The translations under genes were made by a program, and so were the position numbers. A stretch of DNA of 45,697 bases from Candidatus Scalindua sp. SCAELEC01 (GTDB lineage Bacteria > Planctomycetota > Brocadiia > Brocadiales > Scalinduaceae): contig SHMT01000034.1 in NCBI GenBank assembly GCA_004282745.1, positions 1 to 45,697 of the forward strand. Direction: 5' to 3'. This document shows positions 838 to 45,225 of the stretch, piece after piece (the first letter of the stretch is position 1; each line of letters opens with the position of its first letter). The notes beneath the pieces were generated by a model. The model did not search any database. It saw only the letters and a program-made list of their open reading frames with translations, and was not told the DNA's origin.

Positions 838-3033
838 ATGATGAAAAAAATATTACTCTGCGGCAAAAACGGATTCTCCCTCATCGAGATCATGATTACG
901 ATGACCATCGTAGCGGTTCTGGGAGGCATTGCAACGGTCGCCATACTCAAAGAACGTAGTGCATTTTACCAGACTGCATGTATGAGCAACCTGAGACAGA
1001 TATCTCAGGGCATGCAGATCTACTACAACGAAAACGGGAAATTTCCAAAGGATGGCTACCCCGATGACGGCAATGACCCCCTCCCCCTCTCTACCGAACT
1101 TGCCAACTATGTACCAGAAAAGAGTCTCTTTATCTGCCCCGAAGACGACGATCCTGTCACTACCGCCAACTTTGCAAGCTATGACCCCTATTACGTTGCA
1201 CGTAAGGACCCCGACGATGTTGACAAACTCCTCATCGGATGTCCCCACCATAGAGAGGCGAAAAAGGCGACAAACCTCCTCGGCGCAGGTACAACAAATA
1301 TCACCAATGTTGATACCGTACTCGTAAACGGCCAGGAGATACCTCCCGATGGCACATCTGCCGAGAGGGTCATAAGCAACGTAAACGATGAAATGACCTT
1401 TGTTGATGGAAGCAGAGTAAAGATCACCAATTCCCAGGCAGGGTATGGGACATACCTCGTCCAGTCAGTGCGACTAGCAGACGGAACCCTCTACAGTATC
1501 ATACGGGTCGAGGACGAGGGGACAATCGATGTCCAGGTTACGGCCGGCTCCAAATTCGAGGTAGTAACACCGAGTGCCATTATCGGGGTACGGGGTACCC
1601 GGTTTACGGTCCAGACCCTTAATGCCAACAACGCCACGACCGTTACCATGATAACGGGAACGGTTGATGTCATGGACCGCGAAACTGGCACAGTGATAAA
1701 ATTATCCATCGACGGTACAACAACTGCCACCATTGATGATCTAGATGATGGCGTAGACAATGATGGTGATGGATATACGGGCAACCAGGGAGATTGTGAC
1801 GATGCCAATCCAATTGTCCATCCGGGAGCAGGTGAGATACTTGATAACGGAATAGACGATGACTGTAATCCTGCCACTCCTGACAGCTCGCAGGATATCG
1901 ATAGTGATGGAGATGGGTTTACCGGGAACCAGGGGGACTGTGATGACGGCAATCCAAACGTCAACCCCGGTGTGGCTGAGATAGCTGATAACGGGATTGA
2001 CGATGACTGTAATCCGGCTACCCCAGATAGCTCCTCTGATATCGATAATGACGGTGACGGGTTTACCGAGAACCAGGGGGATTGTGACGATGCAGATCCG
2101 GCAATTAATCCAGGAGCTACGGAGGTATTTGATGGCGTAGATAATAACTGTGACGGGCAGACCGATGAAGGATTTACGGATACTGATGGTGATGGTTATA
2201 CACTTGAAGTTGATGACTGTAACGATGCAGATCCGGCAATTAACCCGGGAGCTACGGAGGTGTTTGATGGCGTAGATAATAACTGTGACGGGCAGACTGA
2301 TGAAGGATTTACGGATGCCGATGGTGATGGTTATACACTTGAAGTTGATGACTGTAACGATGCTGATGCCTCTATTAACCCGGGTGCTGCGGAGGTGTTT
2401 GATGGCGTAGATAACAACTGTGACGGCCAGACCGATGAAGGATTTACGGATGCCGATGGTGATGGATTTGCCCTTGAGGTTGATGATTGTGATGACACCA
2501 ATCCAAACGTTAATTCAGGAATGGCTGAGATAGCTGATAACGGGATTGACGATGACTGTAATCCTGCTACCCCGGATAGCAGCTCAGGTGATCAGGCACT
2601 AATAGACTTTATCAATAACCCTGCAAATAGTTCAACTGCCGTTGCAAATTATCTTGTGAGCGAATCGCCACTATCAGATGCCGTACTGATAGCAATGATA
2701 AACCGAAGTCCTTCATTATCTTCCGGTGACAATGAGAATATCCTAAACTTAGCGAGCAATAACCCACTATCTGATAATGTACTTATTGCAGCAATAAATG
2801 AAGGTACAATAATGAACTCCTTTGAGTGGACCATGCAAAACAATAGTCCATTATCAGAAAATGTTCTTAATTCAATGATAAATAATGATACACTCATGAC
2901 ATCCAGAGAGTATAAAGATATCCTTGTTCTTAATTCTCCATTGCCACTGAATATTTTAGGCCAGGTCATTGCCGGTACACCCTCACTGAAAACAAATGAC
3001 CTAACTAAGGTTTTAGCAGCGAATGGGATGTAA
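838..3033 (+). CDS. Pseudopilin-FecR-MopE repeat fusion protein
   Basis: A 731-residue protein with an unusual domain order. Residues 1-12 are a class III prepilin leader cut after Gly12, followed by FSLIE with Glu at +5 and a hydrophobic helix. A pseudopilin-like stretch follows to about 160. Residues about 165-290 look like a FecR domain (TPSAIIGVRGTRFTV, then TGTVDV). Residues about 302-586 are six MopE-type putative metal-binding repeats with DxDGDG, DCDD or DCND, and DNNCDGQTDEG or DDDCNPATPD signatures, rich in Asp and probably binding calcium or another metal. The last about 145 residues are four further repeats built on SPLSxNVL. The start is ATG ATG at 838/841 with a weak ribosome site. 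It probably acts as a minor or tip pseudopilin exposed outside the inner membrane; that role is inferred from the leader. Confidence 0.75.
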   Translation: MMKKILLCGKNGFSLIEIMITMTIVAVLGGIATVAILKERSAFYQTACMSNLRQISQGMQIYYNENGKFPKDGYPDDGNDPLPLSTELANYVPEKSLFICPEDDDPVTTANFASYDPYYVARKDPDDVDKLLIGCPHHREAKKATNLLGAGTTNITNVDTVLVNGQEIPPDGTSAERVISNVNDEMTFVDGSRVKITNSQAGYGTYLVQSVRLADGTLYSIIRVEDEGTIDVQVTAGSKFEVVTPSAIIGVRGTRFTVQTLNANNATTVTMITGTVDVMDRETGTVIKLSIDGTTTATIDDLDDGVDNDGDGYTGNQGDCDDANPIVHPGAGEILDNGIDDDCNPATPDSSQDIDSDGDGFTGNQGDCDDGNPNVNPGVAEIADNGIDDDCNPATPDSSSDIDNDGDGFTENQGDCDDADPAINPGATEVFDGVDNNCDGQTDEGFTDTDGDGYTLEVDDCNDADPAINPGATEVFDGVDNNCDGQTDEGFTDADGDGYTLEVDDCNDADASINPGAAEVFDGVDNNCDGQTDEGFTDADGDGFALEVDDCDDTNPNVNSGMAEIADNGIDDDCNPATPDSSSGDQALIDFINNPANSSTAVANYLVSESPLSDAVLIAMINRSPSLSSGDNENILNLASNNPLSDNVLIAAINEGTIMNSFEWTMQNNSPLSENVLNSMINNDTLMTSREYKDILVLNSPLPLNILGQVIAGTPSLKTNDLTKVLAANGM
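2089..2493 (+). repeat. Three tandem 135-nt units coding for MopE repeats
   Basis: Units start at 2089, 2224 and 2359, exactly 135 nt (45 codons) apart, and are nearly identical at the nucleotide level (GATGCAGATCCGGCAATTAA in the first two). The protein unit carries INPGA, EVFDGVDNNCDGQTDEG and FTDxDGDGY. Such identity points to recent duplication and likely copy-number variation. Confidence 0.85.
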
Positions 3034-37507: not shown

Positions 37508-38437
<930 letters not shown>

Positions 38438-38451
38438 CTATGAAAAATTTC

Positions 38452-38485
38452 CAAAAAAAAACCCACCTGGCTAGGTGGGTTTTTA
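38452..38485 (-). terminator. Rho-independent terminator after the multiheme cytochrome gene
   Basis: A perfect 8-bp stem ACCCACCT (38461-38468) / AGGTGGGT (38473-38480) with a 4-nt loop. On the minus strand it is followed by nine T residues, so it ends transcripts of the cytochrome gene before mdh. T residues on the plus side also make it potentially bidirectional. Confidence 0.9.
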
Positions 38486-38561: not shown

Positions 38562-39773
38562 TCAAGAACCATTTGGCACACTACCTACGTTCCGGTTGAA
38601 ATTGTGATGGTTATATGGATCACTATGGCAAGACTGACAGCGAAAGGAGGTCTCTCCATTAAGCTTTCCACCCTCGTAGATCTTACCGTGTACGGTCTTT
38701 AAACTCATATCAAGTTGGGCATGAGGAGGTCCGCCAACATGGCAATTTTCACATACCTTTGACTTAGCAGCTTCCTTTCGAGAAAACAGATGTTTCGGAT
38801 GGCAACTGTTACAGCTACCTCCGGAACCATCGTCCCACTCTTTGTTTAAGCCAAGCATATGACACTCTTCACAATCCTTCCTGACCGTCAGGTTTTTTGT
38901 GCTAGCAACAACCCCGTCAAATTTCGCAACTATTCTTCCATTAAAATGTTTACTCTGAGCAAAGTCATTAAACATCGTTTCATGGCACTCACCACACTTT
39001 CTTGGCAAGACCTCACCTTTTCTCTCAACAATCACACCATGATCGTCTCCATGACAACCGAGACATGTCACACCTTTTAAGGCATGAGCACTATTCGTCC
39101 ACTCTTTTACGACCTCTGGAGTAGCATGCCTATGACAGGCAAAACAGTCCTCTTGTGTATACGTGCCAAAAGGCGGTTCCTTCGCTTCCGCATAAGCCTT
39201 AAACACATCGGCTTTCATGTGTGGATGCACAAGCCCCACATGACAATCCATACAGGTCAAATCAGCGAGTGCTCCATCTTCCCCCTTTTTCTTAGAGAGC
39301 GAGACCATCTCAACATGGGTTTTGTCCTTTGTGAACTCTTCATTCACGTGACAATCAACGCAATTATTATGAACGATAGAGACACTATCCTCCTCAATAT
39401 CAATAAACAATCCTGAATCTTTACTCGTTAGATAGGTTTTCTTAAAATGTTCAATTGAGTCATGGGTACCATCACTTAATTTTGCATGCAGAAAACCTTT
39501 TAATCCAGGTCCAATGTGGCAGGTGTGGCAGGCATGGACATGCTCATTATTATGTTTCGAAGCCATTAAGGAGTCGTAGTGGACATCCATCTCATGACAA
39601 CTACCACAGAACTCGCTCGACTCAGCATAATGATAAAACTTTCTTCCTCCAACCAACGCAACAGCTACAAAGACAATGAACAAAAGCCCCACCAACTTTT
39701 TATGCTTCTTAACCTGATCCAGCACAAGTTTTAAAATATTTGCAATTTTGCCCTTGCAAGACTCACAATCCAT
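38562..39773 (-). CDS. Membrane-anchored 11-heme c-type cytochrome (NapC/NirT-like N-terminus)
   Basis: A 403-residue protein. A single membrane anchor (about 27-43) holds a periplasmic domain with eleven CxxCH sites, first cysteines at 56, 82, 138, 174, 210, 237, 260, 301, 321, 341 and 379. The first two (EFCGSCHEM and ACHTCHIGPG) match the start of NapC/NrfH-type quinol dehydrogenases. Spacing further on, with His-rich stretches and CEECH, recalls octaheme cytochromes. It probably passes electrons from quinol to a periplasmic partner. A Cys pair, CESC (3-6), faces the cytoplasm. AAGGAGGTTTCT precedes the ATG; the same 12 nt precede the divergent gene at 40205. No redox partner gene is adjacent. 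Confidence 0.9.
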   Translation of the reverse strand: MDCESCKGKIANILKLVLDQVKKHKKLVGLLFIVFVAVALVGGRKFYHYAESSEFCGSCHEMDVHYDSLMASKHNNEHVHACHTCHIGPGLKGFLHAKLSDGTHDSIEHFKKTYLTSKDSGLFIDIEEDSVSIVHNNCVDCHVNEEFTKDKTHVEMVSLSKKKGEDGALADLTCMDCHVGLVHPHMKADVFKAYAEAKEPPFGTYTQEDCFACHRHATPEVVKEWTNSAHALKGVTCLGCHGDDHGVIVERKGEVLPRKCGECHETMFNDFAQSKHFNGRIVAKFDGVVASTKNLTVRKDCEECHMLGLNKEWDDGSGGSCNSCHPKHLFSRKEAAKSKVCENCHVGGPPHAQLDMSLKTVHGKIYEGGKLNGETSFRCQSCHSDPYNHHNFNRNVGSVPNGS

Positions 39774-39894
39774 AGAAACCTCCTTATTATGTTACTTTGG
39801 TATTATGCTATATAATAAAGGTAAATGATGAAAGTACGTTCTTGAAACATCAGAAGTTCAATTAAGGTATCTTCACGCGTAATGTAAAAAAACC

Positions 39895-40204: not shown

Positions 40205-41563
40205 TTGAAAAGTGTTTTTGTAACATTATGCATTGTATTTTTTCTTTCCGTTTCCGTAACAAACGCTGAGATTTCAAAGGGAACAAAAAAAAAGAGCTGT
40301 CCCACCTGCGAAAAAATATATACTGACAATAGCGTCTATTGCCCACTGGATGGAGGAAAATTGGAACGAATTCCCCTGTCAGATCCAAGTGTACAGACAC
40401 AGAGAAATGTAATGGAAGGTCCTCAAGGCGAAAAAGGAGAACCGCTAGATGACAAATCTTTACAGGTAAAGAAATATATAGAAACAGCAAATTCATTGCG
40501 TGAGAATTCCGGAGATTATAAGGGCGCCCTTGAGTTTTACAAGAAGGCGGAAGAGCTAAATCCGGATTTAGCCTCTTTACATTGGTTCATGGCCGGAACT
40601 TACTGGAAGCTCAACAATCACCAAAAGGCTTTAGAACATCTGGAGATCTGCAGGAGTTATCAGATACCGGGATCTGATCAGATAAACAAGATAGATGATT
40701 TTGTGGGTAAGGTGTTGGTATTTCTAGAGTTAGATGACAAGCAGAAGATTGCAACAAAGAGAATTGGTGACAGAAAAGCGCAAATGGAGGCTTCTCTGAA
40801 AAAGAATAGAGAGAAGTGGGAAGAGATGGTCCTCGTACCCGCTTCTGATTTCACCATGGGGAGCAGTGCAGAGGACTTTATCCAGGAAGAGATGCCTCAG
40901 CATACCGTCTTTCTCGATACCTATTATATTGACAAATACGAGGTGACAAATGCGCAATATTGGGAGTTTCTAGAATACATCACGAGGACTGACGACCACA
41001 GTAAATGTTATCCCGGAGAGCCTCTCAATAAAAATCACATACCTGGCGTCCCTTTCAAGGGGTATGAATACAAATACTATAATTATCCCGACTATCCTGT
41101 CAAACGTGTTGACTGGTATGATGCTTATGCCTATGCCGCATGGGCAGGAAAACGTCTCCCAACTGAAGCAGAGTGGGAAAAGGCCGCCAGGGGGACTGAC
41201 GGTAGAAGGTTCCCCTGGGGCAATGTATGGGAAGTTAAAAACTGTAACGTTGGCCCCGAAGGCATTCTCACTGTTGGAAGTTACGAACAGGGCGACAGTG
41301 TCTATGGTTGCAGTGATATGACAGGGAGTCTCTCTGAGTGGTGTAATGACTGGTATCACCCCTCATACTATTATGAAAGTCCCAAAAAAAATCCAACGGG
41401 CCCTACAAAGAAAACTGGTAAACGTGTCATTAGGGGGGGGTCATTATACGCACAAGGAGTCTACAAGATGCGCTGTGCGGTAAGAATGTTTGGAGAACCA
41501 GGTGAAAGAAACAAGAGTGTCGGATTCAGGTGTGCCAAGGATGTTGTGGCCCCTTCCGATTAA
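40205..41563 (+). CDS. Secreted zinc ribbon-TPR-SUMF1 domain protein
   Basis: A 452-residue protein. A signal peptide ends at about residue 21 (VTNA-EIS). A zinc-ribbon-like motif follows: C32, C35, C46 and Asp49 (CPTC ... CPLDGGKL). Then come one or two TPR units (about 88-160), a charged coil, and a SUMF1/formylglycine-enzyme-like domain (about 205-445) with VPASDFTMGS, VTNAQYWEF, KRLPTEAEWEKAARG, FPWGN, and VIRGGSLY...GFRCA. In true sulfatase-modifying enzymes two active-site cysteines lie in GGSxxC....C; here the segment reads GGSLYAQGVYKMRCAVR, so both are absent. It is more likely a binding or structural member than an enzyme. The start is TTG, fixed by a strong ribosome site. Confidence 0.85.
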   Translation: MKSVFVTLCIVFFLSVSVTNAEISKGTKKKSCPTCEKIYTDNSVYCPLDGGKLERIPLSDPSVQTQRNVMEGPQGEKGEPLDDKSLQVKKYIETANSLRENSGDYKGALEFYKKAEELNPDLASLHWFMAGTYWKLNNHQKALEHLEICRSYQIPGSDQINKIDDFVGKVLVFLELDDKQKIATKRIGDRKAQMEASLKKNREKWEEMVLVPASDFTMGSSAEDFIQEEMPQHTVFLDTYYIDKYEVTNAQYWEFLEYITRTDDHSKCYPGEPLNKNHIPGVPFKGYEYKYYNYPDYPVKRVDWYDAYAYAAWAGKRLPTEAEWEKAARGTDGRRFPWGNVWEVKNCNVGPEGILTVGSYEQGDSVYGCSDMTGSLSEWCNDWYHPSYYYESPKKNPTGPTKKTGKRVIRGGSLYAQGVYKMRCAVRMFGEPGERNKSVGFRCAKDVVAPSD

Positions 41564-42160: not shown

Positions 42161-43384
42161 TTACTGAACGATCTCTGGCAAAGCAGTTCTTTCCTGTTCT
42201 CGTTTCTCGATTTTCTCTTTTATCTGCTCCATATTATATTCAAATTGTTCCAAAGTACCTAACAACTTGGAATCAAACTCTAACAGGCTGGTAGACCCTC
42301 TGGCGGTATTCTTTACCATGCGGTATTTTTCGTATTCATCATGTGCTTCCGTTTTTTTCCCTAAAGAGATCAAGGCTTGCCCCTTATTGAAATACGCATC
42401 GGCAAACCCCGGATCTAGAGATATCGTCTTTGAGTATTCAGCAATTGCCTCTTCGAACCGTTCCTGTTTGTGATACAACGTACCAAGATTAAAGTGGGCA
42501 TTCACATAATCGGGGTTAGAGGCAATAACCTTCTTATTCGCTGCTATTGCCTCTGTGTACATATTCTTGCTTGCATAAAGAACCCCCAGAAAATAGTGCG
42601 CTTCTGCCATATCGGGATCGATCTCCAACGCATTATTGAAGAATTGCAGGGCATCGTCGCTCATACCCTTGAGATAATATACCAAGCCCAAATTACAATA
42701 GGTGTCTTTATTGTCAGGCTCTAAAGTATTTGCTTCTAAGAGCTGTTCAAGCGCCTTATCGTGTTCACCTATAGCAATATATGCAATGCCCAGGTTGTAA
42801 TGTGCCTTTTCATGATTAGGTTTCAGTTCGATTGCCTTTTCATAAGAGGGTATGGCTTTTTCAAGCAAATTAAAATCTTGATATGCCACACCAAGAAGAA
42901 AGTGCGCTTCTGGATTATATGGGACTATCTCCAGAACAGTATTAAACTGCTCAAAGGCCGGTTCCATCTTTTTTAACTTCAGATATATTACTCCCAAGCG
43001 TAAACGGGCATCAACATCCTTTGGATTCCCCTCAATGGCATTTTTGCATATCGTCAGTTCGTCTAACGGCACGCCGATTTCCTCAAAAGTCTCTGCGAGT
43101 TTCTTATGTGCGTCAACATAATCAGGACGAATTTCAACTGCCTTCCTGAACTCCTTTACCGCCTCTTCCAGCATACCTTTTTTCAGATATACCTCTCCTA
43201 GTTTATAATAGACCTCCGCTTCATCGGCATCAATTTCAATAGCCCGTTTATACTCCACAATGGCGTCATCCAACTTCCCTTGAAGTATGAGTGTATCGCC
43301 GCTCTCAACATGGTCTGTCGCCTTTTCACAACCAATGATAAAAAACCCTACAAAAACCATTACAACATAAGCATACTTTTTCAT
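42161..43384 (-). CDS. TPR-repeat lipoprotein (first paralogue)
   Basis: A 407-residue lipoprotein. The lipobox is FFIIGC with the lipid Cys at 19. Ten or so TPR units of 34 residues follow (for example AEVYYKLGEVYLKKGMLEEA), and the protein ends in a charged coil. The mature N-terminus CEKATDHVESGDTLILQGK is shared with the neighbouring gene at 43701 (CEKAQDHVGIGQALLEQGK). TPR lipoproteins serve as envelope scaffolds, but no partner is evident. Both genes have the same orientation, about 315 bp apart. Confidence 0.85.
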   Translation of the reverse strand: MKKYAYVVMVFVGFFIIGCEKATDHVESGDTLILQGKLDDAIVEYKRAIEIDADEAEVYYKLGEVYLKKGMLEEAVKEFRKAVEIRPDYVDAHKKLAETFEEIGVPLDELTICKNAIEGNPKDVDARLRLGVIYLKLKKMEPAFEQFNTVLEIVPYNPEAHFLLGVAYQDFNLLEKAIPSYEKAIELKPNHEKAHYNLGIAYIAIGEHDKALEQLLEANTLEPDNKDTYCNLGLVYYLKGMSDDALQFFNNALEIDPDMAEAHYFLGVLYASKNMYTEAIAANKKVIASNPDYVNAHFNLGTLYHKQERFEEAIAEYSKTISLDPGFADAYFNKGQALISLGKKTEAHDEYEKYRMVKNTARGSTSLLEFDSKLLGTLEQFEYNMEQIKEKIEKREQERTALPEIVQ

Positions 43385-43700: not shown

Positions 43701-44915
43701 TCACTCATATTCCAACAGCCAGTCCTTGAAACTTGGGACCATAAAGGTTTCCACCTTCTCCTCGTCAACACCACGCAATGCCACCGCGGCTGCCTCGGTA
43801 CCAGTCTTTGCTTTCACAATCCTGCTATAGCTGATGTAATCGCTGTACGCTTTAGGTGTATCACCCATTGAAGCATACACCTGACCTCTATTATAGTATG
43901 CATCTTCGTAGATCCGATCAATCAATAGCACCTTGTTATATTCCTGTAACGCCCTATCCAAATCTCCCTGTTTGTGGTATACAACTGCAATATTGAATTG
44001 TGCGTTTGTATGGTCAGGATTCAGATCCAACACCTTCTTGTTTTCAACCAACGCTTCTTCATACTTCTCCTGAAAAGCGTACACAATACCTTTTTGGTAA
44101 TAGGCTTCTATGGACTCTGGATCGATCTCAAGGGCCTTGTCATAGTGCTCCATTGCCTTATCAAACTCTTTTTTCTTAATACTGATCATCCCATAATCCA
44201 CGTATACATCAGCATACTTGGGATTAATTGCCAACGTTTTCTCATACTCCTGCATCGCATTTTCAAGATCGTTGATCTTCAGATAGGAAACCGCCAGGTT
44301 ATAGTGGGCCTTGTCATACGAGGGGTCCAATTCAATTGACTTCAAATAGAGTGGTATTGCCTTCTCTTCAAAAAGAGCCATATCCTGATAAGCAACCGCT
44401 AAATTATAATAGATAAATGGATTATCCGGCTGCAGTGTCAGAGCCTGCTCATACTCCTCTATAGCCTTCTCCGTTTGATCCAGGCTGTGCAGAAATACCC
44501 CCATATCCAGATGGGCCATAACGCTATTTGGCTCATCATCAAGCCTCTTCTTCCTCTTTTCAAAGGCCGTGGCTGGAGGACCGATTGTAATAAACGTATC
44601 GGTCAATTTTTTATATGCATCTTTGTATTCAGGATTAATGTCGATAGCTTTTCTATAATTCTCGATCGCTTCATCAAGCATCTGTTTTTCTACATAGGCA
44701 TTCCCCAGACTAAAATACGCCTCCGCCAGATTAGGATCATCTTCTACTGCCTTTTTGAATTCTTCCGATGCTTCTTCCACTTTTCCCTGTTCAAGTAAGG
44801 CTTGCCCTATCCCAACATGGTCTTGTGCCTTTTCACAACCTGTCACTAACAGCAACAAAACAACTATTAACAAAACACTTACCGCACTCATTTTTTTCGC
44901 AATACACGTATACAT
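43701..44915 (-). CDS. TPR-repeat lipoprotein (second paralogue)
   Basis: About 404 residues. The signal ends LLLLVTGC. Around nine to ten TPR units follow (for example LAEAYFSLGNAYVEKQMLDEA), then a non-repeat tail ending MVPSFKDWLLEYE. ATG at 44915 is chosen because AGGAG stands 4 nt before it (44920-44924); GTG at 44942 would add nine basic residues. It is paralogous to the gene at 42161-43384 along its length, including one unit (the FxTIGPPATAFEKRKKRL stretch) that matches FEEIGVPLDELTICKNAI at the same position. Confidence 0.85.
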   Translation of the reverse strand: MYTCIAKKMSAVSVLLIVVLLLLVTGCEKAQDHVGIGQALLEQGKVEEASEEFKKAVEDDPNLAEAYFSLGNAYVEKQMLDEAIENYRKAIDINPEYKDAYKKLTDTFITIGPPATAFEKRKKRLDDEPNSVMAHLDMGVFLHSLDQTEKAIEEYEQALTLQPDNPFIYYNLAVAYQDMALFEEKAIPLYLKSIELDPSYDKAHYNLAVSYLKINDLENAMQEYEKTLAINPKYADVYVDYGMISIKKKEFDKAMEHYDKALEIDPESIEAYYQKGIVYAFQEKYEEALVENKKVLDLNPDHTNAQFNIAVVYHKQGDLDRALQEYNKVLLIDRIYEDAYYNRGQVYASMGDTPKAYSDYISYSRIVKAKTGTEAAAVALRGVDEEKVETFMVPSFKDWLLEYE

Positions 44916-45225
44916 TTTTCTCCTCATCCTCTTTTTCTGCACATCGGCTTAATTTTCATAAGTTTTTGTCAGTCAAAATTAGAAATACTATAAACAACTC
45001 CCATCAATGACGCAACCCCAATGTTGCGGCAACTACATCACTCAACTTTTGGTACAAAATTACCCCAATTCGCAAAACTATCGTACTAGACTATAATGTT
45101 ATCATAAAAAAGTCCACTGAAAAGTATGTAATTTTTTATACTATACCCATTGCAAAATGAATTTTTGAATATCAGGACTGGAGTTTTCTGAAAATTTTGA
45201 TTTTTCGATTGAACAAAACCAGAGG
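44916..45225. other. Gene-free stretch upstream of the TPR lipoprotein
   Basis: About 310 bp. It contains a small GCAAC/GTTGC hairpin (45011-45027) and, at about 45139-45165, TATACTATACCCATTGCAAAATG, the end of the ATGAGTATA repeat family. The promoter of the minus-strand TPR gene should lie here. Confidence 0.4.

Follow-up and report, generated by a model that had tools for sequence, protein, structure and literature searches.

An eleven-heme cytochrome of Brocadiales joins an NrfH-type module to an HAO-type heme core and is a candidate electron link between hydrazine enzymes and the membrane

We analyzed a 45,697-nucleotide stretch of Candidatus Scalindua sp. SCAELEC01 (contig SHMT01000034.1; here "the window"). 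It forms one contig (C78) in a genome of 4.59 Mb whose closest named relative is Candidatus Scalindua sp. RBC_AMX3 (83%), and thus comes from a Scalindua-like anammox bacterium, one of the group that converts ammonium to nitrogen gas in the absence of oxygen. On its minus strand, positions 38562 to 39773 encode a 403-residue cytochrome in which an N-terminal module of the NrfH/NapC type, with four heme motifs, is followed by a seven-motif core of the type found in HAO and hydrazine dehydrogenase (HDH). The protein apparently originated when a cytochrome that handles quinone was fused to a portion of an enzyme of the nitrogen cycle. We consider it very probable that this chain is a single-chain conduit between quinone and cytochrome, and propose it as a candidate electron link joining the hydrazine enzymes to the membrane.

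The eleven-heme open reading frame is a real gene. It starts with ATG, preceded at a distance of five bases by a Shine-Dalgarno-like AAGGAGG (39779 to 39785, minus strand) that may serve in ribosome binding. The protein contains exactly 11 CxxCH motifs, at residues 56, 82, 138, 174, 210, 237, 260, 301, 321, 341, and 379 (numbered from M1 throughout), a count already made in a first-pass annotation of the same DNA and confirmed here. When the residues of the protein were shuffled 2000 times, CxxCH occurred on average 0.12 times and at most twice. A hydrophobic stretch recognized by eye at residues 26–46 (39636 to 39698, minus strand) is probably a single, uncleaved membrane anchor. The annotation had also pointed to a cytoplasmic CESC pair. 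This pair is present (residues 3–6) but not conserved, as only 6 of the 24 aligned rows (that of the window among them) show two cysteines ahead of the probable membrane helix, and we rejected it as a metal site.

The NrfH/NapC-type module spans residues 1–194 (39192 to 39773, minus strand) and hemes 1–4. Residues 26–185 match PF03264, the NapC/NirT N-terminal region, with 49 bits (cut-off 24.1). The best NCBIfam model was the NrfH equivalog TIGR03153 (72.7 bits, below its cut-off of 134.2), ahead of napC_nirT (19.1 bits, also below cut-off). A profile of eight N-terminal sequences searched against the PDB returned, up to E 0.1, NrfH as the sole chain (2j7a chain C, E 1.2e-8). By these sequence comparisons, the module is nearest to NrfH; the earlier description of a NapC-like N-terminus holds for the family, but not for the closest member.

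Residues M62, K98, and D105 align with M49, K82, and D89 of the 2j7a chain, which we take from the NrfH literature to be the heme-1 ligand and the quinone site. Met, Lys, and Asp are invariant at these positions in all 24 rows of our alignment A2, including that of the window. M62 closes the CxxCHxM arrangement begun by the heme 1 motif CGSCH (39594 to 39608, minus strand), and K98 and D105 are the end residues of the segment at 39459 to 39482 (minus strand). The annotated layout, a NapC-family anchor and first hemes followed by seven further CxxCH sites, is supported, and it carries this conserved signature. In five aligned orthologs of family f3 (L068, L072, L073, L052, and L054), the first CX2CH is replaced by CX3CH (e.g. 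CGKLCH); many ImcH homologs likewise carry an atypical CX3CH, according to the available text of PMC6295460.

The seven additional hemes are no anonymous wire; they correspond to hemes 1–7 of the HAO/HDH octaheme family. This core occupies about residues 196–396 (38586 to 39188, minus strand), with hemes 5–11 of the window protein paired in the alignment with HAO hemes 1–7. In the C-terminal half, a phmmer search matched HDH (6hif, E 7.4e-10, residues 199–374) as well as HAO-like chains, and the 24-row profile reached about 1e-19 against both 6t5e and 6hif. The chain ends 20 residues past heme 11 and has no counterpart of HAO heme 8 or of the C-terminal domain, and the hydrazine dehydrogenase model NF052343 gave 45.9 bits (cut-off 900) over a partial profile only. 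Compared with both families, the protein is a NapC/NirT member with an HAO/HDH-like core, but by cut-off and architecture it belongs to neither NrfH, HDH, nor the octaheme family. The heme 8 motif CEECH (38859 to 38873, minus strand) corresponds in position to HAO heme 4, the catalytic heme. P350-H351 (38721 to 38726, minus strand) aligns with the Asp-His pair of HAO and HDH, which we take to be active-site residues of HAO. At the H351 position all 24 rows have His, preceded by E in 11, D in 8, P in 2, S in 2, and V in 1 (acidic in 19).

A tree of the core region was built from 45 rows (L129_-0 dropped beforehand; midpoint root for drawing only). The eight eleven-heme rows formed one clade (100/100), which lay outside a supported group (100/97) in which all eight HDH rows fell together with 10 of the 13 other anammox HAO-like rows. 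This position suggests that the HAO-like core branched off separately long ago and is not a recent copy of HDH.

Our data suggest a membrane-anchored quinone:cytochrome c oxidoreductase that combines a tetraheme quinone module of the NrfH type with a seven-heme core of the HAO type on one chain. The N-terminal helix would keep heme 1 at the membrane, whether that of the anammoxosome or another, and M62, K98, and D105 would form the quinone site. The eleven hemes, which we infer to be attached at the motifs, would conduct electrons between this site and the HAO-like end, and this end probably docks soluble anammox hemoproteins. One chain would do the job performed by c554 plus cM552 in aerobic ammonia oxidizers. 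As the most likely net flow, we tentatively propose a route from hydrazine dehydrogenase, directly or via a small cytochrome, through the eleven hemes to menaquinone. In the earlier suggestion of quinol oxidation and an electron wire within one protein, the single-chain link from quinone to cytochrome fits, but the direction may be that of quinone reduction. HDH is soluble, its electrons must reach the membrane, and the carriers are little known (PMC8388095, available text); a 2013 paper, in its accessible part, gives the partner of the anammox hydrazine oxidoreductase as "an as yet unidentified cytochrome c" (PMC3701875). It is somewhat less likely than not that the window protein is this very cytochrome. 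It would then be a single-chain oxidoreductase between hydrazine dehydrogenase and menaquinone, completing the energy cycle of anammox in place of the c554-cM552 relay and delivering the -750 mV electrons of hydrazine to the quinone pool.

The protein is widespread in Brocadiales. Among 62 genomes searched (E <= 1e-60), orthologs were present in 16 of 17 genomes of family f1, 30 of 33 of f4, all 9 of f3, the single f5 genome, and neither of the two f2 genomes, for a total of 56; in two of these (G009 and G043) the gene is split across contigs. The genomes outside f2 without an ortholog are G047, G012, and G035 (79–85% complete) and G022 (99% complete). A truncated ortholog with 64% identity and Scalindua-type neighbors was observed on a contig binned as Alphaproteobacteria (L051, OFTM68), which is probably mis-binned. 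The contig scan for homologs reaches only close relatives. A profile search covered one phylum; it drew on 392 Planctomycetota genomes, including at least 36 from Brocadiales, and scored no more than four candidates per genome. Among the matches listed from this search, none outside Brocadiales was full-length; each matched one of the two parts, HAO core or NapC. Twenty non-Brocadiales regions were retrieved, and the 16 HAO-core matches within them had no heme motif ahead of the core in frame. One 333-residue, eight-heme protein (L141_2 in G214) gave a partial NapC-type match (profile positions 14–294), with Pfam matches to the NapC/NirT region and, weakly, to c7/c554-type families, and is possibly a distant relative. 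Two kinds of candidate were not counted as orthologs: L055, a 717-residue protein full of CxxCH with 24% identity over 15–399, and the NapC-like f2 proteins with 13 CxxCH motifs (L086 7450–9192, L087 8094–10007, L088 8304–10103), with 27–29% identity over 262–280 residues. Near these 13-heme proteins lie 8- and 17-heme proteins (L086) and a 16-heme protein (L088).

Gene order ties the cytochrome to hydrazine dehydrogenase in many genomes. The common arrangement in relatives is HDH, one or two TPR genes, an opposite-strand TPR/FGE-domain gene, the cytochrome, aconitase and/or mdh, and often sdh. HDH (e.g. at L067, 1228 bits with NF052343) was found in 48 of the 62 Brocadiales genomes and, at the threshold used, in 43 of the 56 with an ortholog. 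In 21 genomes from families f1, f3, and f4 (21 of the 43 that carry both genes), it sits on the strand of the cytochrome gene, 4.1–7.7 kb upstream. The contig ends within 6 kb upstream in 20 genomes, and its extent is not known in 7. The window's contig ends 5.9 kb upstream of the cytochrome gene, and a search of its own genome for HDH found no piece in that upstream stretch. The search returned no full-length HDH but two 59-residue N-terminal pieces, on C72 (92% identical) and at the first bases of C84 (71% identical), as would be seen if repeated copies had broken the assembly.

Several observations weigh against electron delivery from hydrazine dehydrogenase to quinone through this protein. 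Six genomes with ample upstream sequence have no adjacent HDH (G030 has no HDH match anywhere), and G005 and G010 show none in 7.2 and 7.7 kb of upstream sequence. Both f2 genomes (G001 and G002) contain HDH and lack the ortholog, so the eleven-heme protein is not obligatory for anammox. HDH matches without the ortholog also occur in G035, G047, and the nearly complete G022. Between the HDH group and the cytochrome gene lies a gene on the opposite strand, and the adjacency may be old synteny because the block also carries genes for tryptophan synthase alpha, a PLP-enzyme, mdh, and aconitase. In the Kuenenia-like genome G032, hydrazine synthase (HZS) rather than HDH is the nearer to the ortholog. 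The HAO-like core is, by its separate clade, not an HDH copy, and AlphaFold2 with the window protein and 16 homologs gave no usable structure (mean pLDDT 44.1). Finally, NapC-family proteins are mostly quinol-oxidizing.

Reversing the flow gives a quinol dehydrogenase, in which menaquinol would be oxidized at the NrfH module and electrons would exit via the HAO-like core to soluble acceptors such as HZS, a nitrite reductase, or other cytochromes. NrfH and NapC are both quinol dehydrogenases. The NapC/NirT-family protein CymA is one as well (PMC6295460, available text). Genome G032 (4,406,153 bases) offers further support. Its ortholog, at 2924755–2925969, begins 8.2 kb downstream of hzsA, which closes a run of hydrazine synthase genes (identified with NCBIfam as beta, gamma, and alpha) preceded by a second beta/gamma pair. 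Directly upstream of the ortholog is a 178-residue HPP protein (PF04982, 151 bits) which fits KSMBR1_2720/kuste2872 (PMC7438415, available text), and this genome has one other PF03264 match over cut-off, a weak one (24.6 bits) at a distance of 60 kb. Judged by position and name only, KsCSTR_12840 is the most likely Kuenenia ortholog; it increases along with HZS, and shuttling to HZS is a possibility raised by its authors. These points are set against the 21 genomes in which HDH neighbors the gene, the position of HZS having been looked at in G032 only, and we regard the quinol dehydrogenase as somewhat unlikely.

A self-contained quinol-dependent reductase appears improbable. In such a fused NrfHA-like enzyme, heme 8 would be an open site reducing an N-oxide, as its alignment with HAO heme 4, the invariant H351 with a mostly acidic preceding residue, and the provision of only six invariant non-motif His for seven C-terminal hemes would allow. 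However, the Asp position holds P, S, or V in 5 of 24 rows, the window protein among them, and the C-terminal domain and eighth heme of HAO are missing. More improbable still is a redox partner in carbon metabolism that would serve the succinate dehydrogenase/fumarate reductase encoded downstream. Aconitase is indeed the next gene in all 18 distinct f3–f5 loci, as is mdh or sdhC in 15 of 17 Scalindua-family loci, with sdh genes following in many. Sdh is, however, already quinone-linked and would not need a multiheme chain, and the window's mdh is followed by kinase and regulator genes, not sdh. Of 35 distinct loci, moreover, 24 have a hairpin with a T-run after the cytochrome gene, mostly 57–100 bases past the stop (our own criterion, with no shuffled control). 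In the window, it lies between the cytochrome gene and mdh (38457 to 38484; assigned to the minus strand, listed by the scan on the plus strand, and near-symmetrical); a terminator consensus scan of the window region gave 6 sites vs 4.1 in shuffles. From this recurrent terminator-like hairpin, co-transcription with the carbon genes is doubtful.

Each module of the proposed quinone-cytochrome conduit has known counterparts. The protein shares with NrfH (2j7a chain C) the CxxCHxM heme 1, the aligned Lys and Asp, a probable membrane anchor, and four hemes. NrfH, however, is a tetraheme chain of 159 residues that passes electrons to a separate enzyme, whereas the window protein has eleven motifs and adds the seven-heme HAO-type core in the same chain. 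With the HAO/HDH octaheme family (6hif, 4n4j, 6t5e), it shares seven consecutive hemes and intervening motifs. It differs in its probable membrane anchor, its separate clade, the unconserved Asp of the Asp-His pair, and the lack of an eighth heme and of the C-terminal domain, which in HAO bears the cross-link tyrosine.

Functionally, the closest parallel is cM552, which with c554 belongs to the hydroxylamine:ubiquinone redox module of aerobic ammonia oxidizers and Nautilia. It is related to NapC/NrfH and links HAO and quinone (PMC3701875, accessible part); compared here by description, it differs in being tetraheme and separate from HAO. ImcH and CymA are likewise NapC-related, quinone-linked multiheme cytochromes. 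CymA has 4 hemes, and ImcH of Geobacter combines three membrane helices with seven CxxCH motifs; the window protein, with one hydrophobic stretch by eye and eleven hemes, falls outside the ImcH definition. The available text of the source for both (PMC6295460) does not mention an HAO-type core. A search of the CC-licensed PMC literature, in the texts available there, did not find the eleven-heme NrfH-HAO fusion, its spread in Brocadiales, or its synteny with HDH; subscription reviews (e.g. Kartal and Keltjens 2016) were outside its scope, and the fusion may already have been described elsewhere.

The accessible parts of PMC8388095 and PMC3701875 do not settle how hydrazine's low-potential electrons get to the anammox membrane. 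This question becomes testable because there is now one named candidate protein, present in most Brocadiales genomes, with mutable quinone-site residues and a nearby partner gene. Multiheme cytochromes, for their part, gain a fused NrfH-HAO architecture.

The remaining neighbors in the window also recur in relatives. Upstream, a TPR/FGE-sulfatase-domain protein (40205 to 41563, plus strand) is the conserved divergent neighbor by domain search and neighbor comparison. It is followed by a TPR protein (42161 to 43384, minus strand; domain search and neighbor comparison) and, by neighbor comparison, a second TPR protein (43701 to 44942, minus strand), both members of the cluster that relatives often have after HDH. 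One TPR cluster follows HDH in several anammox families including f2 (L084, L085, L090–L093, L096–L099, L102, and L103), although the HDH copies in L089 and L094 lack it. The TPR protein after HDH is a candidate HDH assembly or handling factor. Searched against the PDB, neighbor cluster c14 gave one match (E 0.19). Downstream, a gene of the lactate/malate dehydrogenase family (mdh; 37508 to 38428, minus strand) is a conserved neighbor by the same domain and neighbor comparisons.

Two other proteins drew our attention. An 843-residue protein (L006, G000:C28:20375-22903) carries eight CxxCH motifs and combines an HAO-like part with a long extension at the N-terminus. Its assignment as hydrazine synthase alpha proved wrong, NCBIfam placing the real HZS genes in L105; a counterpart with 66% identity exists in G032. 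Within the window, positions 838 to 3033 encode a pilin-like N-terminal segment and repeated DCDDxxPxxNPGAxE-type motifs, recognized by eye, near type II secretion/pilus-like genes.
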